Made by a program: the position numbers and the translations under genes. A DNA stretch of 64,000 bases from Halomonas alkaliantarctica (GTDB lineage: Bacteria; Pseudomonadota; Gammaproteobacteria; Pseudomonadales; Halomonadaceae): positions 3,720,001 to 3,784,000 of the forward strand of contig NZ_CP122961.1 of the NCBI RefSeq assembly GCF_029854215.1, in the 5' to 3' direction. The notes below the pieces were generated by a model. It had not been told where the DNA came from. It worked only from the letters and a program-made list of their open reading frames with translations, and made no database searches. Shown here in pieces: positions 5,739-21,454 of this stretch (positions are counted from its first letter, which is position 1; every line of letters starts with the position of its first letter).

Positions 5739-7418
5739 TTAAAATTCTTCCCACTCTTGATCAGCGGTTACCGCTGCCTTCGACTTTTTATCCGTCAGGG
5801 TGGCAGGTCGCATAAGCGCCGGTTGCGTTTGGGGCGTTGTCAGCGGGGCATACTGGGTACGGGTTTCACCTTCCGCCAGACGAAATGTCGAAACGACGCT
5901 TTCCAGCTTGGCCGCCTGCTCTTCCAGCGAGCTCGCCGCCGAAGATGCCTCTTGGACCAGCGCGGCGTTCTGCTGCGTCACCTCATCCATCTGGGTAATG
6001 GCCTGGTTCACCTGCTCGATCCCCGAACTCTGCTCCTGAGAAGCCGCAGAGATTTCATCCATAATGTCAGTCACGCGACGCACAGAGGCAACCACTTCAC
6101 GCATCGTCTCGCCGGCGCTTTCAACGAGCACCGAGCCCTCTTTTACCTGGGTTGATGACGCCTCAATCAATGCTTTGATCTCTTTAGCGGCATCCGCACT
6201 GCGGCTCGCCAGGTTACGCACTTCGCTGGCCACTACGGCAAAGCCACGCCCTTGTTCACCTGCCCGCGCTGCTTCCACCGAGGCATTAAGCGCCAGGATA
6301 TTGGTTTGGAAGGCGATAGAGTCAATAACAGTAATAATATCCGTCACTTTTTGTGAGCTGTTGGAGATACCGTGCATAGTGGTAATCACCTGCTCAACCA
6401 CTTCACCACCGTTAGTTGCCGTGCTTGAGGCATCGTTCGCTAACTGGCTAGCCTGACGAGCATTATCCGCGTTCTGTTTAACGGTAGCGGTTAACTGCTC
6501 CATACTAGCAGCGGTCTCTTGTAACGAGGCAGCCTGCTGCTCGGTCCGCGATGAAAGGTCTGCATTGCCGGAGGCAATTTCACGCGCGCCAATATGAATG
6601 GAGCCGCTGCTGTTGCGTACTTCAGAGACGGTTTTAGCCAGGTTGCCCTGCATGTGCTGCATGGCGCTAAACAGCTTGCCAATTTCATTTTGGCCACGTG
6701 AGTCAACTTTACCTGAAAGATCATTTTGGGCGATACGTTCGAAGTGCCCTACCGCCTCGTTCAGCGGTTTTACAATCGACCCCACCATGGCAATGCGTAC
6801 GAACAACACCATTAACGCCGCCAGTATCAACACGGCGATATCGATGTAACCAATCAGTTGCATATCATTTTCATAATCGGCAATCATGAGCCCGTTTTGT
6901 TCTGCCATGTAATCGTTGTAGGCAGTACTCGCTTCTATGAATTGCTGATTTAAATCGCTTGCCGCCTCTCTTACGTTGCGAAATGCGTCTTCATCACCGG
7001 CGACCAACGCCGCTTCCTGGGGCCTCAGCCCCTGCTCCATCAAACGCTGAAAGCTGGCCATCAAGGCTTCCACAAGGACCGTCTGTGTAGCGATTGACTC
7101 AAACGCCGAGAAATACTCTTGAGCGTCCTCCTGCATGCCCTGTGCTGCGACCAGGTAATCACGGGCCGAACTGGCATCGCCTTCATAATCCGCGACAAAG
7201 CTATTGACGTAAAAAAGCTGTGCGTTTGCAATTGACAGCTGCCCTCGGTTGACCGAGCGCATTTGATCTGCCGCACGGTCAACCTCTCTAAGCGAAGAGC
7301 TACCCTCTTCGCCTGCCTGATAGCCAAGAAAAGCAATGATGATGATTAATAATGCAAAAATGGCTAAGACAAGGGTTAAACCTAGTTTTACTGATAGATT
7401 ATTAAGTAGTCGTTTCAT
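5739..7418 (-). CDS. Methyl-accepting chemotaxis protein with C-terminal CheR-docking pentapeptide
   Basis: Inner-membrane chemoreceptor of 559 residues. It has a transmembrane helix near residues 12-32, a periplasmic helical sensor of about 150 residues that looks like a four-helix bundle, a second membrane helix near 190-212, a HAMP domain, and a cytoplasmic signalling coiled coil. The conserved hairpin tip is present ([20 protein letters not shown], near residue 370). The last five residues, EWEEF, match the pattern of the NWETF/GWEEF methyltransferase-docking tail of high-abundance receptors. A sigma-28-type promoter lies about 115 bases upstream. The ligand cannot be told from sequence. 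Confidence 0.95.
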
Positions 7419-7531
7419 AGTGCGGGAAAGCCTCCAGGCCAGTTCTATTAGCTATTGGCAATTTATAGAATCTAGCTAGAGCACTTCCAGCGGCTTTAGA
7501 TTAAATCGACCAATATTCTTTACGAGAATTT

Positions 7532-7558
7532 CTATCGGCCTGGGAGGCGTAGACTTTA
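7532..7558 (-). promoter_or_regulatory. Sigma-28 (FliA) promoter for the chemoreceptor
   Basis: Read on the minus strand the site is TAAAGTCT, 11 bases, GCCGATAG. That differs by one base in each element from the flagellar consensus TAAAGTTT-N11-GCCGATAA and has exactly the consensus spacing. It faces the chemoreceptor gene and is placed as expected for a flagellar/chemotaxis regulon gene. Confidence 0.88.
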
Positions 7559-7653
7559 GTCTAGAATGGAAATTATTTTCAATCGTGAGAATAGAAATGA
7601 TTTGCAAGCGGCAGTAACCAGCGGACGTTTTGGGTATAGTTGAAGCGCGCCCT

Positions 7654-7679
7654 CGCCGCGGCTTGACCAAGCCACGGCG
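7654..7679 (-). terminator. Hairpin after the RND pump gene, possible terminator
   Basis: A 12-base near-perfect inverted repeat (CGCCGCGGCTTG / CAAGCCACGGCG) with a two-base loop lies just beyond the stop of the RND gene. No T tract follows on the minus strand, so it may stabilise the 3' end or need Rho, rather than act as a classical intrinsic terminator. Confidence 0.45.
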
Positions 7680-7700
7680 AACACGAAGGAAGGCGTTTGA

Positions 7701-10700
7701 TTATTTATCGGGGTGTATGCGAATCCGGTACAGCACGCAGTAAACCACCGGCAGCACGATCAGAGTTAACAGCGTGGCGACGCCCAGGCCGCCGATCAGC
7801 GCGACCGCCATGCTGGCGAAGAAGGCATCGCTGATCAGCGGGATCATGCCCAACATGGTGGTTAACGCAGCCATAGCGACCGGACGCACGCGGCTGACGG
7901 CCGCTCGCACTACCGCATGGTAGCGGTCTTGGTGCAGCGGCAACTGCACGTTGATCTCCTCCACCAGTACGATGGCATTTTTGATCACCATACCGATCAA
8001 GCTCAACGTGCCCAGCAGCGCCATGAATGAGAAGGGCATCCCGGTAACCAACAACGCGCCAACTACGCCAATAATCGTTAGCGGTACCAGCGACCAAATG
8101 GCCAGCGGCTGGCGGAAGTTATTGAACAACACCACCGTGAGAATAAACATCATCACTATGCCCAGCGGCAGTGAGGAAAAGAGTCCACTCTGCGCTTCGC
8201 CAGCGGTCTCAAACTCACCGCCCCACTCCAACCGATAGCCTGAAGGTAGATCCAAGGCTTCCACCCTTGGGCGAATGTCGGTCAATACACTGGCTGCGGT
8301 CACCCCACTTAGCGGGTCGGGCTCACCGTACACCGCCAGCATACGTTCGCGGTTGCGGCGCATAATCAGCGGATCCGCCACCTGTGAGGTAATATCGCTG
8401 ATGACTTGGTCGGCGGTAATGTAGCGGTTTTGCTCTGCGCTCCATACGTTAAGTGAGCCAAGGTTATCCACATCGTGGCGCTGCTCAGAAATCGCCCGCG
8501 CCACTATCGGAATCAGATCGCTGCCGTCGCGGTAAACGCCCACCTGGCTGCCACTGGTGCTCAGCGCAAGGGTGCTGGCCAGGTCTTCGCGGGTTACGCC
8601 CAACCTACGCGCGGTATCCTCAAGAAAGACGGGCTCAATCACCTGCACGCGGTTACGCCAACTGGTGCGCACGCTGGTCATATTCGGTGTATCGCGGAAC
8701 ATGGCCTCAACCTGATCGCCCAACTGGCGCAGTACCGCCGGGTCGCTGCCGTAGAAGCGCGCCTCTAGCTTGGCTTTGGGCGCAGGGCCGACCTCCAACG
8801 GGGCGATTTTAAAGTCAATATCGCTGTGGTCGCGCTCAAGCACTTGCTCAACGTCGGCCATACGCGCTTGCTGGATCGCTTTATTGTCGGTTTCGACAAT
8901 TAACTGCGCATAGCTTGCGTAGCGGTCTTCCGGTGAGTAGGTGAGAGTAAAGCGCTGCGCCCCGCCGCCCACGGTAGTGGTCAGGTGGCGAACGCCCTCC
9001 ATCGCCATCACGCTCTCTTCAAGCTCGCTAATGCGACGTTGGGTTTCGAGAATATCGGTCCCTTCCGGCGTGCGGTAATCGACAAAAAAGATCGGCGTAT
9101 TCGAGGCTGGGAAAAAGGCATTTTTGACCGAACCAAAGCCGACCACCGCGCTGGCCAATATTGCCACCATCAGCGCCAAGGTTAACCAGCGCCAACGAAT
9201 ACCGGCGATAATGACGCGGCCTACAAAACGATAAACTACGCCTTTATAGGGATCATCCTGTCCATCGCCGGGGGCGACGTTACGGAAAAACATTTTGAAG
9301 TAGAACGGCGTTAGCGTCAGCGCCGTGATCCAGCTCAACAGCAGCGAGTAGAGCAGCACGAAAAATAGCGAGCCGATAAACTCACCAGTGGTGTCTGGCG
9401 ATAAACCGATGGGCGCAAAGGCGGCAATCGCAATCAGCGTGGCCGCCAGCAACGGCCAGGCGTTTTGGCGAATCACTTGGTGCGCAGAATCACGAATAGT
9501 GCCGCCGCGCTTTAACCCCACCAGCATGCCTTCGGTAACCACAATGGCGTTATCCACCAGCATGCCGAGAGCAATAATCAGTGCTCCCAGCGAGATTTTC
9601 TCCAGCTGCAAACCGTGAAAGCGCATCAGCATAAAGGTGCCGATAATGGTGATTAGCAGTATAAAGCCCATTAACAGACCGCTGCGCCAACCCATAAACA
9701 GCATCAGCACTACGATCACGATGGCCACCGCCTGGATCAAGCTGACCAGAAAACCGGATACCGCGTCATCGACCACCTGGGGCTGGTTATAAACGACGTT
9801 TAACTCCATGCCCAGTGGCGTGCGGGTTTGCAGTTCATCCAGACGCTGCTGTAGCCGTTCGCCCACTTCGACCACATTCACACCGCTTTCAAAGGAGACG
9901 CCCAGCGAGATGGCTGGCCTGCCCATATCGCGGTAAAGCTGCTGGGGCTGCTCCGCCAGCTCGCGGCTCACATCGGCAATATCGCTCAACCGCACCAGCT
10001 CTCCATCACCCTCGCTGACAATCAGGGCGCGCAGATCGTCAATGTTCGCTGCACTGCCCGTCGGCGTGATGCGGAAGCGACGACCATCCTGTTTGAGATG
10101 CCCAGAATCCGCCACCGCATTTTGTGTATCCAGCAGCTGCTGTAGCCGGTTTAGCGGAATATTGAGCGCGCGCAGGCGTTCGCGATCAACTTCGATATAG
10201 ATGCGCTCTTCATGCTCACCGCTTAACGATACCTTCGCGACGCCATCCACCAAAGCAAGCTCACGCTTGAGAAAGTCAGCGTGGTCAGCCAGATCCGGCA
10301 TGCTATAGCCATCGCCCGTCAGGTTGACCATAAAGCCAAAAACATCGCCAAAGTCGTCATTAACGCGGGATTGACTCGCCCCTGGCGGAAGCGCGGCCTG
10401 GGCATCCTGTACTTTACGGCGCAGCGAATCCCATAATTGCTCCAACTCCTCGTTCTGCACCGTGCTTTCGAGCTCAACGGTGATCTGCGATAGACCATCA
10501 GAACTCACCGAGCTTACCCGCTTGATCGATGGCATCGCCTGGATCGACTCTTCCAGGGTCGAGGTAACTTCCTGCTCGACTTCTTCAGGCGTCGCACCGG
10601 GGTACTGCGTGGTGATTAGCGCATTACGGATGGTAAATTCGGGAAACTCCAGTTGCCCCATGCCTAAAAAAGACAGCGCGCCGCCCGCCAGCAGTACCAC

Positions 10701-10748
10701 GGTCATTAAGTAGCTGGCCGCTCGATGGCGTAGAAAGTAGTCGACCAT
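7701..10748 (-). CDS. RND-family efflux permease
   Basis: Inner-membrane proton-driven pump component of 1015 residues, the expected size for the AcrB/MexB superfamily. It shows the N-terminal helix, two large periplasmic loops, and two sets of membrane helices with the family pattern: GALIIALGMLVDNAIVVTEG in the first half, LIGMVIKNAIVLVEEI in the second. Just upstream is a lipoprotein adaptor gene, two bases away, so the pair is co-transcribed. No outer-membrane factor gene is adjacent; a TolC-like protein encoded elsewhere is presumably used. The repressor gene at 12025 is divergent. The substrate is unknown; multidrug or solvent export is an inference from the regulator type. Confidence 0.93.
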   Translation of the reverse strand: MVDYFLRHRAASYLMTVVLLAGGALSFLGMGQLEFPEFTIRNALITTQYPGATPEEVEQEVTSTLEESIQAMPSIKRVSSVSSDGLSQITVELESTVQNEELEQLWDSLRRKVQDAQAALPPGASQSRVNDDFGDVFGFMVNLTGDGYSMPDLADHADFLKRELALVDGVAKVSLSGEHEERIYIEVDRERLRALNIPLNRLQQLLDTQNAVADSGHLKQDGRRFRITPTGSAANIDDLRALIVSEGDGELVRLSDIADVSRELAEQPQQLYRDMGRPAISLGVSFESGVNVVEVGERLQQRLDELQTRTPLGMELNVVYNQPQVVDDAVSGFLVSLIQAVAIVIVVLMLFMGWRSGLLMGFILLITIIGTFMLMRFHGLQLEKISLGALIIALGMLVDNAIVVTEGMLVGLKRGGTIRDSAHQVIRQNAWPLLAATLIAIAAFAPIGLSPDTTGEFIGSLFFVLLYSLLLSWITALTLTPFYFKMFFRNVAPGDGQDDPYKGVVYRFVGRVIIAGIRWRWLTLALMVAILASAVVGFGSVKNAFFPASNTPIFFVDYRTPEGTDILETQRRISELEESVMAMEGVRHLTTTVGGGAQRFTLTYSPEDRYASYAQLIVETDNKAIQQARMADVEQVLERDHSDIDFKIAPLEVGPAPKAKLEARFYGSDPAVLRQLGDQVEAMFRDTPNMTSVRTSWRNRVQVIEPVFLEDTARRLGVTREDLASTLALSTSGSQVGVYRDGSDLIPIVARAISEQRHDVDNLGSLNVWSAEQNRYITADQVISDITSQVADPLIMRRNRERMLAVYGEPDPLSGVTAASVLTDIRPRVEALDLPSGYRLEWGGEFETAGEAQSGLFSSLPLGIVMMFILTVVLFNNFRQPLAIWSLVPLTIIGVVGALLVTGMPFSFMALLGTLSLIGMVIKNAIVLVEEINVQLPLHQDRYHAVVRAAVSRVRPVAMAALTTMLGMIPLISDAFFASMAVALIGGLGVATLLTLIVLPVVYCVLYRIRIHPDK

Positions 10749-10749
10749 T

Positions 10750-11844
10750 TTAAAGCCCCTGCTCTTTTTCCCACGGGGTTACCCTGGTTTCCGTGGTTAA
10801 ACGGTGGGCGCCGGCCGCCACAATACGGTCACCTGCAGATAAATCACCGGTCACTTCAAGCCCCTGGGAGGTTAAGGTACCTACTTCAACAGGCACCGCC
10901 TCTACCCGATGGGGTTCAATGAAGCGCCATACTTGGGCCTGTTCGGGATTGTCGCCAGAATAGCTCACGGCATCCGGAGGAAGGCGCCAAAGCGGGGCAG
11001 TTTGAGCGGTTTGCAGCGCGCTCAAATCCAAGCGCACGTTGGCGCTCATACCGTCTAAAAGAGTGATATCGTCCGGCTGGGGAAGCGTTAAAGTGACTTC
11101 ATACGCCAAACTCTGTGCGCTGGCTTGGGTGGTGTAAGACGCTAGCTGGGCGAGATAAGGCTTGTCGCTCTTGCCAAAACGTACTTCAAATGCCAACGCA
11201 TCACCGAAGGGGGCTCCATTACTTCGCGGTATGCGCTGCACGATCTGTTCGGGCAGATGAAACACCACGTCTAACTGCCCTGGTTGCTGAATCACCGCAA
11301 CCGTTTCTTGCACCTGAACAATCTGACGGTTATCCACAGGTACTTGGGCAATCACACCATCGTAAGGAGCGCGTAACTTTGTGTGCTCGACCTGCTCTTG
11401 GGCCTGCTCAAAGGTAGCCCGAGCAGCCCGCCACTCACTTTCTGACTGGTCAAACTGAGATTGGCTGACCGCTCCACGCTGCAGGGTATAGCGCATGCGT
11501 TCCAGCGTTGCCTCAGCTAGCTGCAGGCGCGAACGAGCGCTGTCCAATTCACTTTGGACATTCCGATCATCAATGCGCGCAATCACCTCACCCTCACTCA
11601 CCCGTTGGCCGGGGCTCACATTGAGCTCCAATAATTCCCCGGCCATACGGAATGACAAATTGCTGCGCGTAGAGGCTTCCACCCGCGCGGGAAACTGACG
11701 TAAAGCCGCAGCATTTGCCGACTGCAATGTCATCAATTTTACCGGCCGTATGGCATCAGTCGACTGCGCCTGGGGTTGCTCACAGCCCGTTAGCACGAGT
11801 AGAGCCAGCATGGCGGGCAGTAAACGGAGAAGAATAGCGGGCAC
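10750..11844 (-). CDS. RND efflux periplasmic adaptor lipoprotein
   Basis: Membrane-fusion protein of 364 residues that links the pump to an outer-membrane channel. The N-terminus is a lipoprotein signal (hydrophobic stretch ending LVLTGC, lipidated Cys near residue 21). The barrel-sandwich/lipoyl segments flank an alpha-helical hairpin: an early half with PGQRVSEGEVIARID and a second half with LRAPYDGVIAQVPV. The start is GTG, with AGGAG six bases upstream. It is first in a two-gene operon with the RND permease and reads away from the palindromic operator shared with the TetR gene. Confidence 0.92.
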   Translation of the reverse strand: MPAILLRLLPAMLALLVLTGCEQPQAQSTDAIRPVKLMTLQSANAAALRQFPARVEASTRSNLSFRMAGELLELNVSPGQRVSEGEVIARIDDRNVQSELDSARSRLQLAEATLERMRYTLQRGAVSQSQFDQSESEWRAARATFEQAQEQVEHTKLRAPYDGVIAQVPVDNRQIVQVQETVAVIQQPGQLDVVFHLPEQIVQRIPRSNGAPFGDALAFEVRFGKSDKPYLAQLASYTTQASAQSLAYEVTLTLPQPDDITLLDGMSANVRLDLSALQTAQTAPLWRLPPDAVSYSGDNPEQAQVWRFIEPHRVEAVPVEVGTLTSQGLEVTGDLSAGDRIVAAGAHRLTTETRVTPWEKEQGL

Positions 11845-11915
11845 GAGCAGCTCCTTGATGGCGGTCAGTAAGAATTTTCAAACCTGCATTCTGAATATAC
11901 ATTGAGTAATATAGC

Positions 11916-11949
11916 CACTTCACTGACATTCGTGAATGTCAGTGAAGTG
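11916..11949. promoter_or_regulatory. Perfect 34-bp palindrome, operator of the TetR regulator
   Basis: Two perfect 16-base arms (CACTTCACTGACATTC and its complement) are separated by two bases between the divergent adaptor and TetR genes. The central ACATTCGTGAATGT differs by one base from the core of the E. coli AcrR operator as I remember it (ACATTTGTGAATGT). A TATAAT box (11950-11955) for the TetR gene abuts the palindrome. A possible -10 for the pump operon (TATATT on the minus strand, 11894-11899) places its -35 inside the left arm. Binding should therefore repress both directions. Confidence 0.88.
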
Positions 11950-12024
11950 TATAATAATCACCGTGCGGCGACTTTGCTATTTATCAGTGTCAAAATGCCG
12001 CTAATTCTATTAACAGGAGCCGCC

Positions 12025-12666
12025 ATGTCCCGTCGTAAGGCTGACGCTGAGCGTACCCGAGAAACCATTCTGGATGCGGCAGAAACCACCTTTTTAGCCC
12101 AAGGCGTTTCGCGTACCACCTTGGCACACATTGCCCAGACTGCGGGGGTGACGCGAGGGGCCATTTATTGGCACTTTGAAGACAAAGCCGCACTGTTTGA
12201 TGCACTCCTGGAACGCGTACGTGTCCCTCTGGATGAAATTGTCGATGAGGTGGTGGAGCGACTAGGCTCAGCACCGGCAGACTGTTTACGCGAAATTGCT
12301 CTACGCTCGCTGGCGGCCATTTCCCACGACCTACCACTGCAGAGAGCAGCCACCATCGTGCTGCACCGTTGCGAGAAACTGGAAGAGGAGCACCCGCGGA
12401 TTTGCATGATTACTCGACTCTCTGAGCACGCCGAGGCACGAGTAGAGCAATTGTTTGAACAGGCCCAAGTAGCTGGCACTTTACGCGCAGACCTAACACC
12501 GGCCAGCGCCCGACGCCAATTTCATGGCTTTTTGATTGGCGTTTGCTTCGACTGGCTTCAGGATCCCCAGCAGCATTCTCTGGCGGATGAGAGCAGCGGT
12601 ATCGTGGAAACATTAATGCGTGGTTTATTTAACACGCAAACTGTACGAACCTGCTCCCCATTTTAA
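12025..12666 (+). CDS. TetR-family repressor, AcrR/TtgR type
   Basis: DNA-binding repressor of 213 residues, the normal AcrR/TtgR length. The N-terminal helix-turn-helix is clear (FLAQGVSRTTLAHIAQTAGV, then RGAIYWHFEDKAALFDAL), followed by a helical ligand-binding domain. The reading frame stays open for 41 more codons upstream, but AGGAG stands directly before the ATG at 12025 and the family pattern starts there. The upstream stretch is operator and promoter DNA. It is divergent from the RND operon and probably represses it and itself until a hydrophobic drug or solvent binds. Confidence 0.9.
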   Translation: MSRRKADAERTRETILDAAETTFLAQGVSRTTLAHIAQTAGVTRGAIYWHFEDKAALFDALLERVRVPLDEIVDEVVERLGSAPADCLREIALRSLAAISHDLPLQRAATIVLHRCEKLEEEHPRICMITRLSEHAEARVEQLFEQAQVAGTLRADLTPASARRQFHGFLIGVCFDWLQDPQQHSLADESSGIVETLMRGLFNTQTVRTCSPF

Positions 12667-12700
12667 TTAACGCGTTGATCACTAAAGGTATTTAAATCAC

Positions 12701-13603
12701 TTAGTCCACATTCATCTCGCGAGGGGCGATAAAGTGTTCAGCTAATATGGCGCTCATAGGTACATTAAGCGTAACGTCTTTGCCAGGAAGAGGTTGCTGA
12801 AACCATCGTTCGTAAAGCAACGGCATTTCCGCACTGGTATAAATATGTTCGAGGGCCTTATTGACCTCTGCTGCAAAAGCATCGTCGCCCAATTGCATTA
12901 AAAAACCGAGTGGCTCTATTGAGGTAATCGCTTCTTCGGAAAGCGCGTAAGTGTCAGGATGCTCGGACTCGGCAATCATTGTGCTCAGTAATATATCATC
13001 CATGGCGAAGGCCGCTACGCGGCCATCAGTGACTAAGTCAAACGCTTCCTGCAATGTGTCGACTGGCACAACCGACAAGTTTAGTTGCCGTTCCCGATTG
13101 ACCTGGTTGATCTGGCTAACATTAACGGTGCCCCTAGCTACGCTCACGCTTCGCCCAGCCAAGTCCTCCAAGGTGGTAAATCCATTCTCTTTCAGGGCCA
13201 CATAATGCACCGAGACAAAGAAATGGCTCAGTGCAAACTGCGCACTCTGCCGGCGCTCTTGGGTATTAGTGCTGGCATTACACTCAATATCGATATCGCC
13301 GCTATTGAGCAGTTGTACCCGGTTACTGGGTGTACGATACACATAGGCTATCTCAAGAGAAGGCAGCCCCAGTTGCACTTGCAGCTGTTCCGCTAAGCGT
13401 TGACAGATATCGATAGAGTAACCGACGACGTTACCCTGCTCATCTAAATAAGAGAATGGTGCCGTATCACCATAGCCAACCCTTAACACGCCGGTTGCTT
13501 CTATGCGCTCAAGCGAATCGATAGGCATCTCTGCCTGCGCTCCCCCTCCACCAGACATCATTACCATTAAACTACACCACACAAGCAATAAACTTCGGCG
13601 CAT
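12701..13603 (-). CDS. Periplasmic amino-acid-type solute-binding protein (copy 1)
   Basis: Extracellular solute-binding protein family 3, 300 residues, with a signal peptide (cleavage near AQA-EM). The fold is signalled by GVLRVGYGDTAPFSYLDEQG, by GYSIDICQRLAEQL and by GDIDIECNASTNTQERR near residue 107. It is a clear paralogue of the gene just upstream; both share the DxECxxxTNTxERR segment. GAGGAGG precedes the ATG and overlaps the stop of the upstream gene. No ABC permease or ATPase is nearby. Instead both binding proteins follow a membrane diguanylate cyclase, so a sensing role is more likely than transport. The ligand is not predictable. Confidence 0.9.
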   Translation of the reverse strand: MRRSLLLVWCSLMVMMSGGGGAQAEMPIDSLERIEATGVLRVGYGDTAPFSYLDEQGNVVGYSIDICQRLAEQLQVQLGLPSLEIAYVYRTPSNRVQLLNSGDIDIECNASTNTQERRQSAQFALSHFFVSVHYVALKENGFTTLEDLAGRSVSVARGTVNVSQINQVNRERQLNLSVVPVDTLQEAFDLVTDGRVAAFAMDDILLSTMIAESEHPDTYALSEEAITSIEPLGFLMQLGDDAFAAEVNKALEHIYTSAEMPLLYERWFQQPLPGKDVTLNVPMSAILAEHFIAPREMNVD

Positions 13604-13615
13604 AACGCACCTCCT

Positions 13616-14509
13616 CTACTCTGTGTACTGCTCAGGATTGGCGAAAATAGCGGCAAGCGCTGGCGTTAGCGGCAAGTTCAATACCCGGTTATCAGGAGGG
13701 AGTGGCTGTAAAAACCATTTTTCATAAAGCGTCTGAATGGTTTTACTCTGATAAATATTACGCAGTTCCTTATTTACCAGCTCAACAAAAAAAGGATCAT
13801 CAGGCGGCATCATTAAGCCATAGGGCTCGGCACTACTCAGTGTTGCCTGGGAAACATGAAAAGCAGCAGGGTCAGGCGCAGATGAAACCAAACCAGCTAA
13901 CAAAATACCATCCATCACAAACGCCGAAGCCTGCCCGGAGGCGACCATATTAAAGGCTTCTTCATGGTTCCGGCTGAGCATTACCGATATATTGAGCCCC
14001 TCGGTGCGATTAAGCTCGTTAAGCTGGGCAATATTGATAGTGCCCGTGGTAGATACCACGCTACGACCCGCTAGATCCTGCAAGCTGTCCATGTGCTGCC
14101 CGGCGAGAGATACGCAGCGCGTTGCGGTTAGAAAATGAGGGTACGAAAAAGCGGCTTGACGACGACGCTCGGGGGTATTGGTGGTCACGCCGCACTCGAT
14201 ATCCACGTCGCCATTACGCACTAATATAAATCGATTTGCAGGGGTTACCGGTACATAAGTTACCTTGAGTTCACCTAGGCCCAAGGTTTCCTCCAGACCT
14301 TCAATGACATTTAGACACAGGTCGATCGCATAGCCTGTCGGTTGGTCGTTAACCAGGTAGGAGAAGGGGACTTCGCTGGTGCGATGACCAATAGCAATCT
14401 CACTAGTCGACGCAATACGCGACAACGTTGGTGACGAGGCTATCTCCTCACTAGCAGCGGCGCCTTGCCACATCGCACTAGTCACTAATAACGCTATTAG
14501 CCACTTCAT
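13616..14509 (-). CDS. Periplasmic amino-acid-type solute-binding protein (copy 2)
   Basis: Second family 3 binding protein, 297 residues, with a signal peptide (cleavage near AAA-SEE). Recognisable segments are VPFSYLVNDQPTGYAIDLCL, GDVDIECGVTTNTPERRR and the C-terminal YEKWFLQPLPP, each with a counterpart in copy 1. Only four bases separate its start from the stop of the diguanylate cyclase gene, and 12 bases separate its stop from copy 1. The three genes therefore form one operon. Divergence of the two copies suggests different ligands or a heteromeric sensor. Confidence 0.9.
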   Translation of the reverse strand: MKWLIALLVTSAMWQGAAASEEIASSPTLSRIASTSEIAIGHRTSEVPFSYLVNDQPTGYAIDLCLNVIEGLEETLGLGELKVTYVPVTPANRFILVRNGDVDIECGVTTNTPERRRQAAFSYPHFLTATRCVSLAGQHMDSLQDLAGRSVVSTTGTINIAQLNELNRTEGLNISVMLSRNHEEAFNMVASGQASAFVMDGILLAGLVSSAPDPAAFHVSQATLSSAEPYGLMMPPDDPFFVELVNKELRNIYQSKTIQTLYEKWFLQPLPPDNRVLNLPLTPALAAIFANPEQYTE

Positions 14510-14513
14510 AGGC

Positions 14514-15959
14514 TTACCTTTGTTCGCTGATCCCCAAATTCATTGTCATCCCTGATTCATAGAGCATATAGCGGTCACGCCCTTTCGCCTTGGCCGCATA
14601 GAGCGCCAGATCTGCGTGGCGTAGCAAGTCATGGCTATTGCGGCCATCGACGGGCGCGGTTGCAATGCCAACACTCACTCCAATGTTAATTTCCTGGCTA
14701 TCAAACTGATACGGTTCACGTAGAGTAGACACAATCGCTTCTGCCAGCACTTTTGCCTCACTGGTGGCACTACGCACAACGCGTTGAATGATGGCAAACT
14801 CATCGCCACCAAGGCGCGCCACCAAATCATTGTGGTTCAGCAGTTTCTGTACCCGCTGACTGACTTCAACTAACAGAGCATCCCCCGCCGCGTGCCCAAG
14901 GCTATCGTTTACTGCTTTAAAATGGTCAAGATCAAACAGCATGACATTAAATACGTCACCTTGAAGCATTGAGTGCAACGCGGTTTTTAAAGCGTTGTTT
15001 AATTGCACGCGGTTGGGCAGTTTGGTCAGCTCATCATGATGAGCAAGGTGCTGAAAGCGCAGAGCTTCGTCTTTAACTTCAAGTAAGTGTTCACGCTCAA
15101 TGACTTTCTTACGAAGCGCGTCTATGGCCTTTGCCATCCGGCCAATCTCATCGTTTCGGTCGGTATATGGCGTGCTGTCAGCGGTCTGGTTTTTAGCGAT
15201 TGCGGTAAGCGATCTAATTAATACCGGCACAGGTGTGAATAACTGACGCATCAAAATAGTGACTAGCAGGGCTGTCGCGACCAATACCACCATTAGCGCT
15301 ATAAACGCTTTGCTGACCAGATCATCACGCATCTGATATAGCCCCGTTTTCTGGCCTATAGTGGCTATTAGAACGCCTAACAGTTGTCCATTAGAAGTAA
15401 CAATGGGCAATGAGCTAATGAAGTGCTCTTCACCGCCAATGCTGGCAAATCCAACATAAAAATCAGCGGCATCCGATGCTGTATGCCACGTATTGTTCTC
15501 CAGATTGGATGGTGAGTCTGATGGTGTATTAAGTGCATCGGCCACGATGGTGAAGCCCTCTGAAGACGTCGCGAACAGCCATACGTTGTTACGTGTCTGT
15601 GCACTTGCCAGCGCCAATACATCAATCGGACTAAACCCAGTTTCCAGAACCGACTCTTCATCGCCTATCGGGCGCTGGGAAATGATATGCGTGACTTGCC
15701 CAGTGCCATCTGTCTTCACTGCCACGGACGTATAAATACGCCTGATAGTCGCGCTCACTATCTGGGCATTCACCTGCGCTTCGCGCATCCACTGCTCCCG
15801 AGCCCCGCGCTCAACCATAAAAAAACCTGACAGCGACCCCGTTAAATACGCAAACAGCACGCCCATCAGCATAAACATCACCACCTTACCCACCAGGGTA
15901 TGATGCCAAGGAAGTTTAGCCGCAGGTAGTGAAACACTCCTATGCTGGGGTTCTGGCAT
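14514..15959 (-). CDS. Membrane diguanylate cyclase with Cache-like periplasmic sensor, HAMP and GGDEF
   Basis: Predicted to make cyclic di-GMP from GTP in response to a periplasmic signal. Of 481 residues, a membrane helix lies near 25-47, a periplasmic Cache-like domain near 48-200, a second helix near 205-228, then HAMP, a short coiled coil and the cyclase domain (about 310-470) with intact ARLGGDEFAII. The inhibitory I-site RxxD before GGDEF is altered: the equivalent residues are NHND, so product inhibition is probably lost. No EAL domain follows. It is the first gene of an operon with two periplasmic binding proteins, which may feed it signals. Confidence 0.93.
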   Translation of the reverse strand: MPEPQHRSVSLPAAKLPWHHTLVGKVVMFMLMGVLFAYLTGSLSGFFMVERGAREQWMREAQVNAQIVSATIRRIYTSVAVKTDGTGQVTHIISQRPIGDEESVLETGFSPIDVLALASAQTRNNVWLFATSSEGFTIVADALNTPSDSPSNLENNTWHTASDAADFYVGFASIGGEEHFISSLPIVTSNGQLLGVLIATIGQKTGLYQMRDDLVSKAFIALMVVLVATALLVTILMRQLFTPVPVLIRSLTAIAKNQTADSTPYTDRNDEIGRMAKAIDALRKKVIEREHLLEVKDEALRFQHLAHHDELTKLPNRVQLNNALKTALHSMLQGDVFNVMLFDLDHFKAVNDSLGHAAGDALLVEVSQRVQKLLNHNDLVARLGGDEFAIIQRVVRSATSEAKVLAEAIVSTLREPYQFDSQEINIGVSVGIATAPVDGRNSHDLLRHADLALYAAKAKGRDRYMLYESGMTMNLGISEQR

Positions 15960-16172
15960 CTACTCCGGTTCCTTCATGGCTATAGCTGCAGTGGGCCTAT
16001 TTATTAGCTGTAATCGCAACGAACAATTGTTGCTTGAACAGTTTTTTTGACCACTCTTTTCTTCGGCAAGCGTATAAATTAAATTAGGCTTTAATTGCTA
16101 AAGTATCATTAAAAAGAGCTAGAATGTCTTATGAAAATTACACGCGTAATCATTCTTATTGATCTAGGCTTT

Positions 16173-16189
16173 TTGGCATATCTCTTGCT
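16173..16189 (+). promoter_or_regulatory. Sigma-54-type promoter of codBA
   Basis: The sequence TTGGCATATCTCTTGCT has the -24 GG (16175-16176) and -12 GC (16187-16188) separated by exactly ten bases, and matches TGGCAC-N5-TTGCW at all but one consensus position. The start of transcription would be near 16200, giving a leader of about 35 bases. Nitrogen-limitation control through NtrC fits cytosine as a nitrogen source. I see no textbook NtrC site upstream; an inverted repeat ATTAC-N4-GTAAT at 16136-16149 is a candidate activator site. Confidence 0.72.
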
Positions 16190-16234
16190 TCGTAAGTAGC
16201 TTACAGGTTCGCTTACTTATGTTAGGAGAACGTG

Positions 16235-17500
16235 ATGCAAACGTCGGATTACCCTCTTAGTGAAGTCCCTACCAGCGCCCGCAAGGGCCTGCTTTCTACC
16301 TCGGCAGTATTGCTTGGATTTACGTTTTTCACCGCCACCATGTGGGCGGGCGGCACGTTAGGCCAAGCCTTTTCGATTGGCCAACTGCTATGGATCATAG
16401 TGATTGGCAACTTGCTGCTGGGGATGTATGCGGCAGCCCTCGCCTATATTGCGTGTAAAAGCGGGCTCAATTCGGTGTTGATGGGGCGCTTCTGCTTCGG
16501 CGAGAAAGGCAGCAAACTTTCTGATTTTATTCTCGGTTTCACCCAGATTGGCTGGTACGCCTGGGGCACCGCCACGATTGCCTTAGTATTAGTACGCACC
16601 ACCGGGATGCCTGAATGGTTGGAAATCCCCTTAATGGTGCTCTTTGGGTTTGGTTTCTGCGTGACCGCCATGATTGGCTACAAGGGGATGGATTGGCTGT
16701 CGCGCTTTGCCGTCCCCGCGATGATGCTGTTTATCTTAATTAGCCTGTTCACCGGCCTAGTGGATGTGCGTGGCTTTGCGGGCCTGAGCCAGCAAACGCC
16801 CACGGAAAGCATGAGCGTGGCGGCGGCGATTACCGTCATCATTGGTACCTTTATCAGCGGCGGCACCCAAGCGACCAACTGGAGCCGCTTCTCCAAAACG
16901 CCGAAAATTGCCGTGATCGCGACACTGGCGGCCTTTTTTGTGGGTAACGGCTTAATGGTGCTAACGGGGGCACTCGGCACCATGATTTACCAGCAGGCGG
17001 ATATCGTGGATGTGTTGATCGCCCAGGGGTTTGTCACCATTGCCGTGCTGATGCTGTTTCTGAATATCTGGACGACCCAGGACAACACCATTTATAACTT
17101 CGCCGTGGCGGGCTGCAATTTACTGCGCACCGAAAAGCGTCGGCTGGTCACGGTAGGCGGCGCGGCGATTGGCACTGTACTGGCGGTGGGCGGCATGTAT
17201 AACCTGCTAATTCCCTTTCTAGTGCTACTCGGCACCTTTATACCACCCATGGGCGGGGTGATCATGGCGGACTTCTGGCTCAAGCATAAAGGCCGCTACC
17301 CCGCATTGGATAAAGCACAACTACCCGACTTCAACCGCAGAGGGTTAGCCGCCTATGCCATCGGTGCAGGCGCGGCTTACTTTTCCCCGTTACTCCCCCC
17401 GCTGGTGGGCGTGGCGGTGGCAGCGGGTAGCTACGCCGTGCTGCTACGTTTAAACCACGCAACGCTAAGCGATACGCTTCCCTCTACTGCCAAACAATAA
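16235..17500 (+). CDS. codB: Cytosine permease, NCS1 family
   Basis: Inner-membrane nucleobase:cation symporter of 421 residues with about twelve hydrophobic segments. The N-terminal region has the NCS1 pattern around TMWAGGTLGQAFSIGQLLW; AGGTQATNWSRFSKTPK-like sequence near residue 210 is also typical of CodB. A GTG at 16232 precedes the ATG at 16235; AGGAG at 16224-16228 is best spaced for the ATG. The cytosine deaminase gene follows 17 bases downstream, fixing the substrate as cytosine with good confidence. A sigma-54 promoter lies upstream. Confidence 0.93.
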   Translation: MQTSDYPLSEVPTSARKGLLSTSAVLLGFTFFTATMWAGGTLGQAFSIGQLLWIIVIGNLLLGMYAAALAYIACKSGLNSVLMGRFCFGEKGSKLSDFILGFTQIGWYAWGTATIALVLVRTTGMPEWLEIPLMVLFGFGFCVTAMIGYKGMDWLSRFAVPAMMLFILISLFTGLVDVRGFAGLSQQTPTESMSVAAAITVIIGTFISGGTQATNWSRFSKTPKIAVIATLAAFFVGNGLMVLTGALGTMIYQQADIVDVLIAQGFVTIAVLMLFLNIWTTQDNTIYNFAVAGCNLLRTEKRRLVTVGGAAIGTVLAVGGMYNLLIPFLVLLGTFIPPMGGVIMADFWLKHKGRYPALDKAQLPDFNRRGLAAYAIGAGAAYFSPLLPPLVGVAVAAGSYAVLLRLNHATLSDTLPSTAKQ

Positions 17501-17517
17501 GTGAGCCCCTGTTTTAT

Positions 17518-18771
17518 ATGAGCATGCAAATTATCAACGCCCGCCTACGCCAGCGCCCTGAGCTTTACCGACTTGAGATTGAGAATGGCACGTTTGCGGC
17601 GATTACCGTTCAAGACGCGCCGCAAACAGCCAGCGAAGGACAGATTGATGCGGGCGCCAAGCTCGTATGTGCCCCCTTTATTGAGCCACACATTCATCTG
17701 GATGCAGCCCTAACGGCGGGAGAGCCAAGCTGGAACCAGAGCGGCACGCTGTTTGAAGGCATTGAGCGTTGGGGCGAGCGGAAGCCCATGCTCACCGAAG
17801 CGGACATTCGCGAGCGAGCGCTAAAAACGCTTAACTTGTTGATCGGCAATGGCGTTCAATTTGTACGCACTCACGCCGATACCAGTGACCCCAGCCTTAT
17901 TGGGCTTAAAACCCTGTGTGCTTTGCGCGATGAACTGAAAGATAAAATCGACATACAGGTGGTCGCCTTCCCGCAAGACGGCCTGCTCTCTTACCCCGGC
18001 GGCGAAAAGCTAATGGAGGAGGCATTGGAGTTCGGCGCCGATGTGGTAGGTGGTATTCCCCACTTCGAATACACCCGCGAGCTGGGCGTGGCCTCCATGA
18101 AGCGGGTAGTCGAACTGGCAATCAAGTACGACCGCTTGGTGGATGTACATTGCGACGAAATTGACGACCCTAACTCGCGCTTTCTTGAAGTGCTCGCCTG
18201 CGAAGCGCTGTTTAACGATTTAGGCAGCCTCGTTACCGCCAGCCACACCACGGCGATGCACTCCTACGACAACGCCTACTGCTCAAAGCTGTTTCTGCTG
18301 CTTAAACGCTCGGGCATCAACTTTGTTTCCTGCCCCACCGAAAGCATTCACCTGCAAGGGCGCTTCGATACCTACCCCAAACGCCGCGGTGTTACTCGCG
18401 TAAAAGAACTCAACGAAGCAGGCATTAATGTCTGCTTTGCCGAGGACTCCATCTTCGACCCCTGGTACTCCCTGGGTAATGGCAAGCTACTGCGCACGCT
18501 GGATTTTGGCCTGCATATCTGCCAGATGATGGGCTATCAGGACTTCAGCCAGGCGCTTTCACTCATTACTGACAACAGCGCCCGCACGCTCAATATTGAA
18601 GCGCGTTACGGTATTGAAGTAGGCAAACCCGCCAGTTTCAATCTGCTGGAGGGCGAGGATGACTACAGCGTGCTGCGTAATCAAGGCGAGGTGCTGCTTT
18701 CGGTGCGCCACGGCGAGGTCATTATGCAGCGGGAGCCGGCCAAGATCGTCACCCCTCTGTGGCTTGGCTAA
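17518..18771 (+). CDS. codA: Cytosine deaminase
   Basis: Metal-dependent deaminase converting cytosine to uracil and ammonia in the cytoplasm. At 417 residues it is close to E. coli CodA. Metal-site motifs are visible: the HxH in FIEPHIHLDAAL near residue 62, VDVHCDEIDD near 215, ASHTTAMHSYDNAY near 245, and the aspartate in CFAEDSIFDPW near 315. The gene follows codB and is probably co-transcribed; its ribosome site is weak, so coupling to codB translation is likely. The uracil formed can enter the reductive pathway encoded at 528-5611. Confidence 0.94.
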   Translation: MSMQIINARLRQRPELYRLEIENGTFAAITVQDAPQTASEGQIDAGAKLVCAPFIEPHIHLDAALTAGEPSWNQSGTLFEGIERWGERKPMLTEADIRERALKTLNLLIGNGVQFVRTHADTSDPSLIGLKTLCALRDELKDKIDIQVVAFPQDGLLSYPGGEKLMEEALEFGADVVGGIPHFEYTRELGVASMKRVVELAIKYDRLVDVHCDEIDDPNSRFLEVLACEALFNDLGSLVTASHTTAMHSYDNAYCSKLFLLLKRSGINFVSCPTESIHLQGRFDTYPKRRGVTRVKELNEAGINVCFAEDSIFDPWYSLGNGKLLRTLDFGLHICQMMGYQDFSQALSLITDNSARTLNIEARYGIEVGKPASFNLLEGEDDYSVLRNQGEVLLSVRHGEVIMQREPAKIVTPLWLG

Positions 18772-18848
18772 TGCATCAGCAGCACGTTAGATTATCTATT
18801 TAACCGTCGAACGTTACCGACAGGTGTTAATAAGCGAGGGACTGCATA

Positions 18849-19325
18849 ATGGGCATCGAAACCGTTCGCCAATTTTTTGCCGAGCACGCGCCGGATATCA
18901 ACATCGAAGTACTTGAAACCAGCACCGCCACGGTACAACTGGCCGCCGACGCCCACGGCGTAGCACCAGGGCAAATCGCCAAAACCCTGGCTTTCAAAGT
19001 CGGTGAAAAGCCGCTATTGATTGTGGCCAGTGGCGATGCGCGTATCGACAACCGCAAAATTCGCGATACCTTCGGCGGCAAGGCCAAAATGCTCGACGCC
19101 CAGACGGTGATGGAACTCACCAGCCACCCGGTTGGCGGCGTTTGTCCCTTTGGCCTCGCCACCGATCTGCCGATTTACTGCGATGAATCGCTCCACGCCT
19201 ATGACGAAGTGCTGCCCGCCGCTGGCTCACCCAACAGCGCCGTGCGCCTGAGCCCCAAGCGACTGGCTGAGCTGGTCAACGCCGAGTGGGTGGATGTGTG
19301 TAAGTTGCCAGAAAATGCCACTTAA
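18849..19325 (+). CDS. YbaK/prolyl-tRNA-synthetase-associated domain protein, putative aminoacyl-tRNA deacylase
   Basis: Small single-domain protein of 158 residues of the YbaK/EbsC family, which hydrolyses mischarged tRNAs in trans (for example Cys-tRNA-Pro). Supporting segments are QIAKTLAFKVGEKPLLIVASGD with the conserved lysine near residue 46, and HPVGGVCPFGL near residue 97. GAGGGA lies upstream of the ATG. It is closer to stand-alone YeaK/EbsC-like proteins than to YbaK itself; the exact tRNA specificity is not predictable. It follows codA by 77 bases and may or may not share its transcript. Confidence 0.82.
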   Translation: MGIETVRQFFAEHAPDINIEVLETSTATVQLAADAHGVAPGQIAKTLAFKVGEKPLLIVASGDARIDNRKIRDTFGGKAKMLDAQTVMELTSHPVGGVCPFGLATDLPIYCDESLHAYDEVLPAAGSPNSAVRLSPKRLAELVNAEWVDVCKLPENAT

Positions 19326-19346
19326 GCACGCATCTATAACCTTTTA

Positions 19347-19796
19347 TTATTTAACGTCCAGTAAATAACCGTAAAAAGCCGTATTACGCTGCCATCCCAA
19401 TGATTCATAAAGGTGCTGGGCGCGTTCGTTCTCTACTTGCGTCATTAATATCAAGCGTGAAACGCCGTGATCATGGGCAAGCTGGGTGGCAGCTTCCATT
19501 AATGCTCTCCCGGTGCCTTTATCACGACACTCCGGCAGCACAAACAGATCATTTAGCGTCCAGCGGGCATTTAAGCCCACCGTGGAAACCCCCGGGTAAA
19601 GCTGCACAAAACCGGTGAGCCCACCTTCAGCATCCTCACTCACCAGGATGCGTGAATCCGCCTGACCAAAGCGCTGGCGCAGAAAAGCACGCGCCGCATC
19701 GACATCACTCGGCTGCTGATAAAACTGGCGATAGCCATCCAACAGCCTTGTTAAAGCGTCAAGATCGTTAATAGTAGCTGAGCGAATCGTGTTCAT
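19347..19796 (-). CDS. GNAT-family N-acetyltransferase
   Basis: Acetyl-CoA-dependent acyltransferase of 149 residues. The acetyl-CoA-binding motif is near residues 95-105 (PECRDKGTGRALMEAA), followed by the C-terminal RLILMTQVENERAQHLYESLGW typical of the fold. The frame is open nine codons further upstream, but GGAGG with seven-base spacing supports the ATG at 19796. The substrate cannot be predicted. It reads away from a 30-base palindrome at 19840-19869 which may control it. Confidence 0.85.
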   Translation of the reverse strand: MNTIRSATINDLDALTRLLDGYRQFYQQPSDVDAARAFLRQRFGQADSRILVSEDAEGGLTGFVQLYPGVSTVGLNARWTLNDLFVLPECRDKGTGRALMEAATQLAHDHGVSRLILMTQVENERAQHLYESLGWQRNTAFYGYLLDVK

Positions 19797-19839
19797 GGTG
19801 GGGCCTCCTGCCATGCTTACCATTGATTTAACCGTCTAG

Positions 19840-19869
19840 GTCTAAACATTGAGTAAACAATGTTTAGAC
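19840..19869. promoter_or_regulatory. Perfect 12-bp inverted repeat, possible operator
   Basis: GTCTAAACATTG and its exact complement are separated by six bases between the acetyltransferase gene and the tag relic/phosphatidylcholine synthase. There is no T tract beside it, so a terminator is unlikely. Symmetry and size fit a TetR-type dimer site, but no such regulator is adjacent. Confidence 0.55.
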
Positions 19870-19909
19870 AATGGAATACAGTATAAAAAACACAATCAGA
19901 GACGTTACC

Positions 19910-19978
19910 ATGCTCGGTTTTATCGCCCCTGCCGGATATCCCCGCTGCCAATGGTGTGGCGGTGCGGCAGCAATTTAA
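19910..19978 (+). pseudogene. Relic of the 5' end of a DNA-3-methyladenine glycosylase gene
   Basis: The 22-codon frame reads MLGFIAPAGYPRCQWCGGAA plus AI and a stop. It matches the N-terminus of the intact tag gene at 20815 (FIGPDGYPRCQWCGGAAEF) residue for residue over most of its length. At the DNA level most differences are silent third-position changes, so this is not a fresh tandem copy. The remaining 185 codons of the enzyme are missing. The phosphatidylcholine synthase gene now sits between relic and intact gene, as if a pcs-tag segment from a related strain replaced the original tag beyond codon 22. Confidence 0.82.
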
Positions 19979-20076
19979 GCGGCCGATATAAAAAAACAGT
20001 GATAGGGTATGGTTTTTTAACACGCCTACCAATAAATCGCACAGCAAGGGGACACCACGTTCCCGATGGGGTTAAT

Positions 20077-20802
20077 GTGGCTCAACCGCTCTCTTCGCAT
20101 ACAGAATCCCGCGCCTCGATATGGAAGGCATGGAGCGTGCATATATTTACCGCTAGCGGTGTGCTGCTCGGTACGATGGCGCTGCTCGCACTGGTCGACG
20201 ATAACCCGGTCGCCTGTCTCCTCTGGCTGGGTGCTGCGATGATGATTGATGGTATCGATGGCACCCTGGCCCGCAAATATGAAGTGAAGGCCATACTCCC
20301 CCATTTTGATGGCTCAACGCTCGATATGGTCATCGATTACCTAACCTGGGCCTTTATTCCCGCCCTGTTTATCTACTACTTTATTGAATTGCCACCCTAT
20401 TTAGGGTTGCTATCAGTTTTCATAATCCTGCTGTCCTCGATGTTCTGTTTCTGCAACGTCGATATGAAAAGCCAGGATAACTACTTCGTTGGCTTTCCTG
20501 CCGCCTGGAACATCGCCGCCGCCTATTTCTATGTTCTCGACCTTCCTCCGTTCATCACGTTTGCCACTATCGTACTGCTGGCTGTCCTCACCGTGACACG
20601 AATGAAGTTTCTGCACCCGTTTCGGGTGCGTTTGTTTATGCCACTCAATATCGCCGTGACGCTGGTGTGGTGTGTATGCGCTACGTCACTGGTGCTCTCC
20701 AGCCCCGAGCATGCCGCCTGGGCACTATGGGGGTGGGGCATTACGTCAGCTTATTTTATTGGTATGTGTTTATGGCGCACCGCCCAAGAGTGGTTTGATT
20801 AA
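20077..20802 (+). CDS. pcs: Phosphatidylcholine synthase
   Basis: Integral membrane CDP-alcohol phosphatidyltransferase that condenses CDP-diacylglycerol with choline to give phosphatidylcholine. The Pcs-specific form of the catalytic motif is exact: DGTLAR, 12 residues, G, three residues, D, three residues, D (near residues 55-85). About eight hydrophobic segments span the 241-residue protein. The frame is open far upstream, but that part overlaps the tag relic. GTG at 20077 with a G-rich ribosome site gives the usual family length and is preferred. Choline is abundant in halophiles as an osmoprotectant precursor. The tag gene follows 12 bases later. Confidence 0.88.
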   Translation: MAQPLSSHTESRASIWKAWSVHIFTASGVLLGTMALLALVDDNPVACLLWLGAAMMIDGIDGTLARKYEVKAILPHFDGSTLDMVIDYLTWAFIPALFIYYFIELPPYLGLLSVFIILLSSMFCFCNVDMKSQDNYFVGFPAAWNIAAAYFYVLDLPPFITFATIVLLAVLTVTRMKFLHPFRVRLFMPLNIAVTLVWCVCATSLVLSSPEHAAWALWGWGITSAYFIGMCLWRTAQEWFD

Positions 20803-20814
20803 TGAGCAAAGCTG

Positions 20815-21438
20815 ATGACTAACGACTTTATCGGCCCTGATGGATATCCACGCTGCCAGTGGTGTGGCGGCGCAGCAGAATTTCTGCCCTACCATGATAA
20901 CGAGTGGGGCTTTCCCGTAGACGACGATCAGCGGCTTTTCGAGAAGCTGTGTCTAGAGAGCTTTCAGTCGGGCTTAAGCTGGCGCACGATTCTTAATAAA
21001 CGCGAAAATTTTCGCGCTGCCTTTCACCACTTCGATTTCCACCAAGTCGCCCGCTTTGGCGAAGACGATGTGCAGCGTTTACTTCAAGACGCGGGCATTA
21101 TTCGCCATCGTGGAAAAATCGAAGCAGCCATTAATAACGCCCAACGTGCAAAGGAGATGGTCGAGCAGGAAGGCTCGCTGGCTGCTTTCTTCTGGCGCTA
21201 TGAGCCTGTCGCGTTAGCGGTGCCACAAACACAGACCACCTCGCCTGAATCTATCGCCCTTGCCAAGGAGTTGAAAAAGCGCGGCTGGAAATTTTTCGGC
21301 CCTACTACCGCTTTTGCCTTTATGCAGGCCATGGGGCTGCTTAATGATCATGCCGAAGAATGTGTCATTCGCGAACCAGTAACTCGCGCCCGAGAACGTT
21401 TTTTACGGCCATCTGATCGACAAAAACCCACCGCCTAG
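20815..21438 (+). CDS. tag: DNA-3-methyladenine glycosylase I
   Basis: Base-excision repair enzyme removing 3-methyladenine from alkylated DNA; 207 residues. It has the expected N-terminal CQWCGGAAEFLPYHDNEWG, the helix with ESFQSGLSWRTILNKRENFR, and the zinc-snap residues, with late His and Cys in NDHAEECVIREP near residue 180. The gene follows pcs closely. A near-identical N-terminal relic lies about 900 bases upstream, showing that this locus was rearranged. The 3' end contains the terminator of the convergent fasciclin gene. Confidence 0.94.
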   Translation: MTNDFIGPDGYPRCQWCGGAAEFLPYHDNEWGFPVDDDQRLFEKLCLESFQSGLSWRTILNKRENFRAAFHHFDFHQVARFGEDDVQRLLQDAGIIRHRGKIEAAINNAQRAKEMVEQEGSLAAFFWRYEPVALAVPQTQTTSPESIALAKELKKRGWKFFGPTTAFAFMQAMGLLNDHAEECVIREPVTRARERFLRPSDRQKPTA

Positions 21439-21454
21439 CAAGCCAGACGGTGGG
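21422..21454 (-). terminator. Rho-independent terminator of the fasciclin gene
   Basis: On the minus strand CCCACCG and CGGTGGG (7-base stem, 14-base loop) are followed by TTTTT. The structure overlaps the last codons of the convergent tag gene. Confidence 0.75.

Follow-up and report, generated by a model that had tools for sequence, protein, structure and literature searches.

A diguanylate cyclase encoded with two divergent family 3 solute-binding proteins: a probable dedicated amino-acid sensor recurring in distant bacteria

We describe here a three-gene operon of the salt-loving bacterium Halomonas alkaliantarctica, located in a 64,000-nucleotide stretch of contig NZ_CP122961.1 (positions 3,720,001 to 3,784,000 of the forward strand; this whole stretch is called the window, and plain coordinates refer to it). 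Three open reading frames (ORFs) lie on the minus strand, encoding first a membrane diguanylate cyclase and then two family 3 solute-binding proteins (SBPs), here named SBPa (the middle gene) and SBPb (the last gene), with intergenic gaps of 4 bases between the cyclase and SBPa and of 12 bases between SBPa and SBPb. An earlier note on this DNA had reported the same operon, and the ORFs, their strand and both gaps are all exactly as it gave them.

14514..15959, minus strand: membrane diguanylate cyclase, 481 aa, with the order transmembrane segment (TM), single Cache domain, TM, HAMP, GGDEF
13616..14509, minus strand: SBPa, 297 aa, a GltI/DEBP-type family 3 solute-binding protein with a signal-peptide-like N-terminus
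12701..13603, minus strand: SBPb, 300 aa, a second family 3 solute-binding protein

The three genes form a conserved module, a finding that is new here. A search of genome contigs with the cyclase retrieved 15 loci, 13 of which encode relatives of its sensor domain, the remaining two (L022 and L023) matching in the GGDEF domain only; in all 13 sensor relatives the cyclase is followed by one SBP at minimum, and in 12 by both. Within the window's genus, an SBPa-family match (E<=1e-40) was obtained in 19 of 82 genomes, every one of the 19 sits behind a cyclase, and both SBPs are present in 18, V. stevensii having SBPb only. This count starts from an SBP search, so that cyclases lacking any SBP are uncounted, and it shares species with the cyclase search. 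In the plasmid collection, the sensor is encoded on seven records, one from Halomonas and six from Rhizobiaceae (Rhizobium, Allorhizobium, Agrobacterium), and both SBPs follow in the same gene order on all seven (6/6 for Rhizobiaceae), the Rhizobiaceae sensors being about 40% identical to that of the window. A further gammaproteobacterial family (f188) carries nine sensor copies in 6 of 198 genomes, with both SBPs behind each of the nine, and in Nitrincola A-D6 all three genes are present, with breaks. In L146 and L026 the match to the cyclase is split in two, and the broken or split frames of L009/L147, L156, L019, L146 and L026 suggest either loss in progress or assembly errors.

The same three-gene order, which the earlier note had suggested looking for in other genomes, hence recurs in the genus, on Rhizobiaceae plasmids and in f188, and the flanking genes differ among these three groups. 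The output enzyme differs as well, being a GGDEF protein alone in the genus and in Nitrincola and a GGDEF-EAL protein in f188 and at the six Rhizobiaceae loci. Because the output enzyme varies while the sensor and the SBP pair persist, the linkage is to the sensor. By sequence alone, the sensor family also includes proteins labelled Buttiauxella, Comamonas and Bordetella. A class-level search for the sensor returned 2 of 369 genomes, both of the window's genus, and a phylum-level search returned 28 of 398 (E<=1e-8), namely three genomes of the window's genus, two of f188, and others that all match at 4.8e-19 or poorer, which suggests that the sensor family is rare. Since the trio recurs in distant bacteria and no transporter accompanies it, its role is probably that of a dedicated amino-acid sensor and not of a nutrient pump.

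Within the cyclase, the following features could be delimited.

15324..15824, minus strand: periplasmic sensor, single Cache fold, residues ~46-212
15105..15254, minus strand: HAMP linker, residues 236-285
14571..15044, minus strand: GGDEF catalytic domain, residues 306-463, GGDEF motif intact
14826..14837, minus strand: degenerate I-site, NHND replacing RxxD, residues 375-378

The sensor domain was folded separately, since GGDEF matches swamped the fold search with the full-length protein. Its model has the long N-terminal helix, the PAS-like sheet and the exit helix of a Cache fold, and its score with the Pfam sCache models lies below the cut-off (sCache_3_3, 15.5 bits against 28.8); the Cache-like sensor proposed previously is therefore indeed a Cache fold, and can now be refined to one single Cache domain. 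The two long helices of the cyclase model would be the membrane-spanning segments, whose limits were read off that model. The HAMP domain scores below the Pfam cut-off in the window's cyclase, and it is matched at E<=0.1 in 33 of the 35 rows scanned. In alignment A1, which comprises 26 of the 45 collected proteins, the GGDEF active-site motif is present in all 26 rows, so that the enzyme is predicted to be an active diguanylate cyclase. The earlier note was also right that the I-site arginine is lost (NHND for RxxD); this loss is family-wide, and the output of the cyclase may thus be unrestricted by its product.

Sensor domains are usually the fast-evolving part of such enzymes. Here, sensor identity is 1 to 8 points below GGDEF identity in the nine most distant A1 rows (for instance 56 against 57% in P0033, 44 against 49% in P0038, and 39 against 47% in P0040), and a sensor conserved almost as well as the catalytic domain fits one that is held by protein partners. 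An invariant-rich stretch at residues ~99-128 is a candidate docking surface. The closest solved domains to the sensor fold, on the other hand, hold formate, and the Cache fold could itself bind a small molecule, a point that counts against a role for protein partners. The cyclase might accordingly sense its own small ligand through the Cache domain, with the SBPs acting as accessory buffers, scavengers or capture factors that shape supply without docking. We regard this as unlikely, as the retention of two divergent SBPs together with a sensor conserved close to the level of the catalytic domain suits protein partners better, and a buffering role needs no strict linkage to one cyclase family.

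Both SBPs score over the SBP_bac_3 cut-off, and the best solved relative of both is the glutamate/aspartate-binding protein DEBP (2ia4/2vha; E 8.7e-55 for SBPa and 2.6e-41 for SBPb), while neither reaches the 375 bits of the NCBIfam model for glutamate/aspartate ABC SBPs (NF008063), SBPa scoring 202.7 bits and SBPb 164.2 bits. Judging from their first 45 residues, both appear to carry an ordinary secretion signal with no obvious lipobox. The two are 37.8% identical to each other. Pocket residues are given in DEBP numbering, and we take R75, T92 and D182 to be the GltI anchor for the alpha-amino acid and R24 the side-chain arginine. In the nine halomonad/Nitrincola sequences, SBPa invariably retains R24, R75, T92, H164 and D182, and has P72, E27 and V90 (9/9 each); SBPb also retains R75, T92 and D182 in 9/9, with R24 replaced by G and H164 by L in 9/9 and an alignment gap at position 27. 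In Rhizobiaceae, SBPa has R24 in 5/6, R75, T92 and D182 in 6/6, and N in place of H164 in 6/6, and SBPb has S or G at position 24 in 6/6 and retains R75, T92 and D182. The pattern is reversed in f188, where SBPa is without R24, R75, T92 and D182 in 4/4 rows, and SBPb has R24, R75 and T92 in 4/4, with D182 changed to N in two.

S72 and S27 contact the side-chain carboxylate of the ligand, and the S72P substitution makes a GltI-based sensor respond to aspartate in place of glutamate (PMC10942590). Given this precedent, P72 in SBPa leads us to predict aspartate or a close analogue as its ligand, a reading softened by the fact that Glu27 and Val90 are also changed, the conserved Glu27 in particular urging caution on aspartate. 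As for SBPb, which keeps the anchor and is without R24, a non-acidic ligand or none is predicted. The earlier note had called SBPb a diverged second copy: its divergence is borne out, and its redundancy is rejected, as the pocket residues argue for specialisation. The two SBPs, whose pockets differ, are thus seemingly specialised. Because a different copy kept the amino-acid anchor in different lineages, a swap of SBP roles between lineages is suggested.

It is possible, if doubtful, that only one SBP senses while the other is a ligand-dead structural partner (a pseudo-receptor), either within a heteromeric cap or setting the basal state, with the sensing and dead roles differing by lineage; this is a sub-model that overlaps our best explanation. 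The f188 copies speak in its favor, SBPa having lost R75, T92 and D182 there where SBPb keeps R24, R75 and T92, as does the loss of both R24 and H164 from every Halomonadaceae SBPb (9/9). The halomonad SBPb, however, retains all three anchor residues in 9/9 and so probably still binds some amino acid, and the argument is weakened by the alignment gap near SBPb position 27 and by the residue roles beyond S72 and S27 being assigned on general grounds. In a tree built, like the residue table, from 19 SBPa and 19 SBPb sequences, the SBPb of Halomonadaceae, of two Rhizobiaceae and of f188 cluster together (90/93), and most SBPa rows have the GltI outgroup in their midst (91/96); an old duplication probably predates the spread of the trio. 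Near-duplicate or broken sequences (L009, L011, L012, L021, L072 and the SBPb of L019), as well as L168-L175 and further genus loci, were left out of the tree and the table.

In agreement with the earlier note, a search with polar-amino-acid permease and ATPase references gave no match at the locus (window 6001-24000). Extended to 32 trio loci (30 distinct) of 7.5 to 13.4 kb each, the search returned a polar-amino-acid permease in 0/32, against 8 of 10 control loci carrying non-trio SBPa relatives. The controls were 10 of 62 plasmid records with GltI-type SBPs, nine annotated and one (L185) unannotated; by annotation a permease adjoins the SBP in seven of the nine, and the reference search adds L185. 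One exception is Methylobacterium radiotolerans (L177), in which the SBP lies beside an aminotransferase gene followed by an IS3-like transposase gene, and the other is Bradyrhizobium sp. 195 (L179), in which it lies behind a GGDEF-EAL enzyme. A further control, Acinetobacter cumulans (L182), has permeases plus a nearby divergent cyclase gene. ATPase matches, unaccompanied by a polar-amino-acid permease, were seen in three trio stretches: L018 (V. hamiltonii), L020 (= L174) and L070, where the region upstream of the trio has two matches to ABC ATPases. By Pfam, V. stevensii (L020/L174) has a convergent NMT1_2 / BPD_transp_1 / ABC_tran set beside SBPb, and in L067 the trio is followed after ~1.9 kb by a branched-chain-type ABC gene. 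None of the transport genes near these trios (L018, L020/L174, L070, L067) is of the polar-amino-acid permease type.

In the window's genome as a whole, 11 polar-amino-acid permease (HEQRo) hits score over the cut-off, in seven clusters, and two more fall below it. All seven clusters have their own family 3 SBP within ~1 kb, and no orphan polar-amino-acid permease was found among them; the earlier note had itself set a permease encoded elsewhere against its model. Given this result and the contrast with the control loci, a transporter role was rejected as the principal interpretation. That the two SBPs feed an ABC permease encoded elsewhere, their co-transcription with the cyclase merely co-regulating uptake and biofilm, is in our opinion very unlikely. 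GltI-family SBPs do normally serve permeases, as 8 of the 10 control loci do here, permeases can share SBPs, and the Salmonella ArtI is described as both a transport SBP and needed for a cyclase response (PMC7423604). Such a role is nonetheless difficult to reconcile with a genome in which each polar-amino-acid permease cluster already has a nearby SBP (7/7), with the lack of any such permease match at the trio loci (0/32), and with a trio that remains intact across bacterial classes.

We therefore consider it likely that the three proteins constitute a three-component periplasmic sensor that couples amino acids to the biofilm signal cyclic di-GMP (c-di-GMP), with SBPa and SBPb dedicated to the single Cache domain of the cyclase. 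The observations on which we build this proposal are made directly on the sequences: the gene order, the domains, the conservation as a unit, the lack of a partner permease and the changed pockets. The SBPs would be soluble periplasmic proteins serving one receptor, the Cache domain, and their ligand-dependent opening or closing would alter the way in which they engage the Cache dimer. TM2 and HAMP would relay the signal to the GGDEF domain, setting its dimer state and thereby c-di-GMP output. SBPa would read aspartate or a close analogue, and SBPb something other than glutamate or aspartate, unless it were a non-sensing partner. The docking, the ligands and the sign of the c-di-GMP response are what we infer. 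The detachable-sensor model put forward in the earlier note is supported, as a model, by the recurrence of the trio across classes with varying flanks and output.

In addition to the possible small-molecule binding by the Cache domain, several points weigh against this proposal. Every permease having its own SBP may still leave room for SBPa and SBPb to share one of those permeases; HisJ and the LAO protein, for example, use one common permease. The count of 18 out of 19 in the genus is conditioned on SBP presence, and the trio is sporadic, with 19 of 82 genus genomes carrying a match. V. stevensii (L020/L157/L174) has a two-gene version, with the cyclase and SBPb and without SBPa, and frames are broken in SBPb of L009/L147 and in both the cyclase and SBPa of L156; the two SBPs are hence not indispensable everywhere. 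A single SBPb clade is weakly supported in the tree (60/34), in which four Rhizobiaceae pairs are unresolved. Finally, adjoining SBP and sensor genes sometimes encode proteins that do not interact, as in the AgtS/AruS example (PMC11113362).

SBP-gated c-di-GMP enzymes are already known as a kind, and the trio shares features with several systems. The best NCBIfam match of the cyclase (residues 187-457) is DgcN/YfiN, the enzyme of the YfiBNR system (YfiN/TpbB), at 175.2 bits and thus below the curated cut-off of 325. YfiN is held by a periplasmic partner; the cyclase described here differs in having no CHASE8 match at E<=0.1, and the adjoining genes encode SBPs. The ScrB protein of Vibrio parahaemolyticus is an SBP. 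In the ScrABC system, the periplasmic signal-binding ScrB interacts with the c-di-GMP enzyme ScrC, all encoded in one operon (PMC10269520). Compared by description, ScrABC differs in combining one binding protein with a signal-producing enzyme, ScrA, whereas our operon has three genes only and no ScrA-like signal synthase gene among them. In the NspS-MbaA pair of Vibrio cholerae and Sinorhizobium meliloti, a soluble SBP of the periplasm, whose gene adjoins that of a c-di-GMP enzyme, switches the enzyme by binding (PMC8967002, PMC9993111). The linkage of an SBP gene to the gene of a membrane c-di-GMP enzyme is shared with the trio, in which the order is conserved across classes. NspS, however, again compared by description, is a single SBP, nearest PotD/PotF and encoded upstream of its enzyme; instead of one such polyamine SBP, the trio has two GltI-type SBP_bac_3 proteins, encoded downstream of an enzyme with GGDEF alone (in distant relatives, GGDEF-EAL). 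The Salmonella ArtI-STM1987 pair likewise requires an amino-acid SBP together with a cyclase bearing a periplasmic domain (PMC7423604, citing Mills 2015), yet ArtI belongs to an arginine transporter, as its binding subunit, while here two SBPs and no transporter are found in the cyclase operon. In CdgH of Vibrio cholerae, two binding domains of different amino-acid specificity serve one GGDEF enzyme (PMC5431781); these are tandem domains fused into the cyclase, whereas the trio has separate proteins and a cyclase with its own Cache domain, in which a domain search found no SBP domain. The trio can be read as a split analogue of the tandem domains of CdgH.

Two other loci bear on this comparison. 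The control locus of the Bradyrhizobium sp. 195 plasmid (L179 1123-4834), where a GltI-type SBP lies directly behind a dCache-PAS-GGDEF-EAL protein with no permease, differs in having one SBP and another sensor domain (dCache-PAS), and is an apparent one-SBP cousin of the trio. The window's genome also has a second SBP-SBP-GGDEF run (L119 3153-5986, C1:3388652-3391485), in which a GGDEF protein of 430 aa is abutted or overlapped by two SBP_bac_3 proteins that are short and divergent (270 aa at 34.7 bits, 243 aa at 33.5 bits). The 8.5 kb examined there gave no match to a polar-amino-acid permease, and the run is possibly an independent two-SBP cyclase.

The operon itself is isolated. A cytosine permease/deaminase pair (codB-like) is divergent upstream, and an AcrR/MtrR-like (tetR-like) regulator is convergent downstream.

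15960..16231, no strand assigned: 272-base intergenic region separating the operon from the divergent codB, the expected site of the operon promoter

A scan of 12500-16400 for sigma-70 consensus promoters and terminators found nothing beyond chance, and an Rfam search of 11500-17000 gave no match. The regulator is accompanied by an ordinary large efflux-type pump and membrane-fusion gene (7701-11844 and 11902-12666), and of the 13 loci from the cyclase search, 10 have the regulator and the fusion gene near the trio.

As for output, lapG and then lapD lie directly behind SBPb in four of the nine f188 copies (L124, L126, L170, L172), spanning four genomes and two genera, with Peptidase_C93 and LapD_MoxY_N over the Pfam cut-off in all four. 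The window's genome has an adjacent lapG-lapD pair of its own, far from the trio (G000 C1:2735247-2736181). Together, these findings make a biofilm or adhesion output plausible for Halomonas. Upstream of the trio, these f188 copies have a divergent EAL protein, and L124 also a Cache_3-Cache_2 chemoreceptor; beside the trio of L123 (7790-9856) is an EAL protein whose N-terminal membrane domain is PTS_EIIC-like (62.7 bits against a cut-off of 30.7). We tentatively suggest, while giving it somewhat less than even chances, that the trio is a mobile two-input module in which non-interchangeable SBPs compete or cooperate on one Cache domain, c-di-GMP reflecting the balance of two amino-acid signals, or of one signal against a ligand-dead antagonist SBP, with some lineages wired by gene order to LapG-LapD for adhesin retention and release, and with SBP roles swapped between lineages.

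In titles and opening lines of abstracts from the open-access literature, we found no description of two separate SBPs gating one c-di-GMP enzyme, and an earlier account may exist. What is new here are two dedicated, seemingly specialised SBPs in a unit common to Halomonadaceae, Rhizobiaceae and another gammaproteobacterial family. For most diguanylate cyclases, no environmental input is known. In the trio, the input side is made up of individual proteins that can be purified and whose family has known ligands, which makes both input and output measurable; the lapG-lapD linkage in relatives provides a concrete candidate output, and the two-gene version of V. stevensii a naturally occurring test of whether the unit can do without SBPa. 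If it is true that two SBPs share one receptor, the trio would represent a compact example of signals being integrated ahead of the membrane, and a split version of CdgH that occurs in nature.

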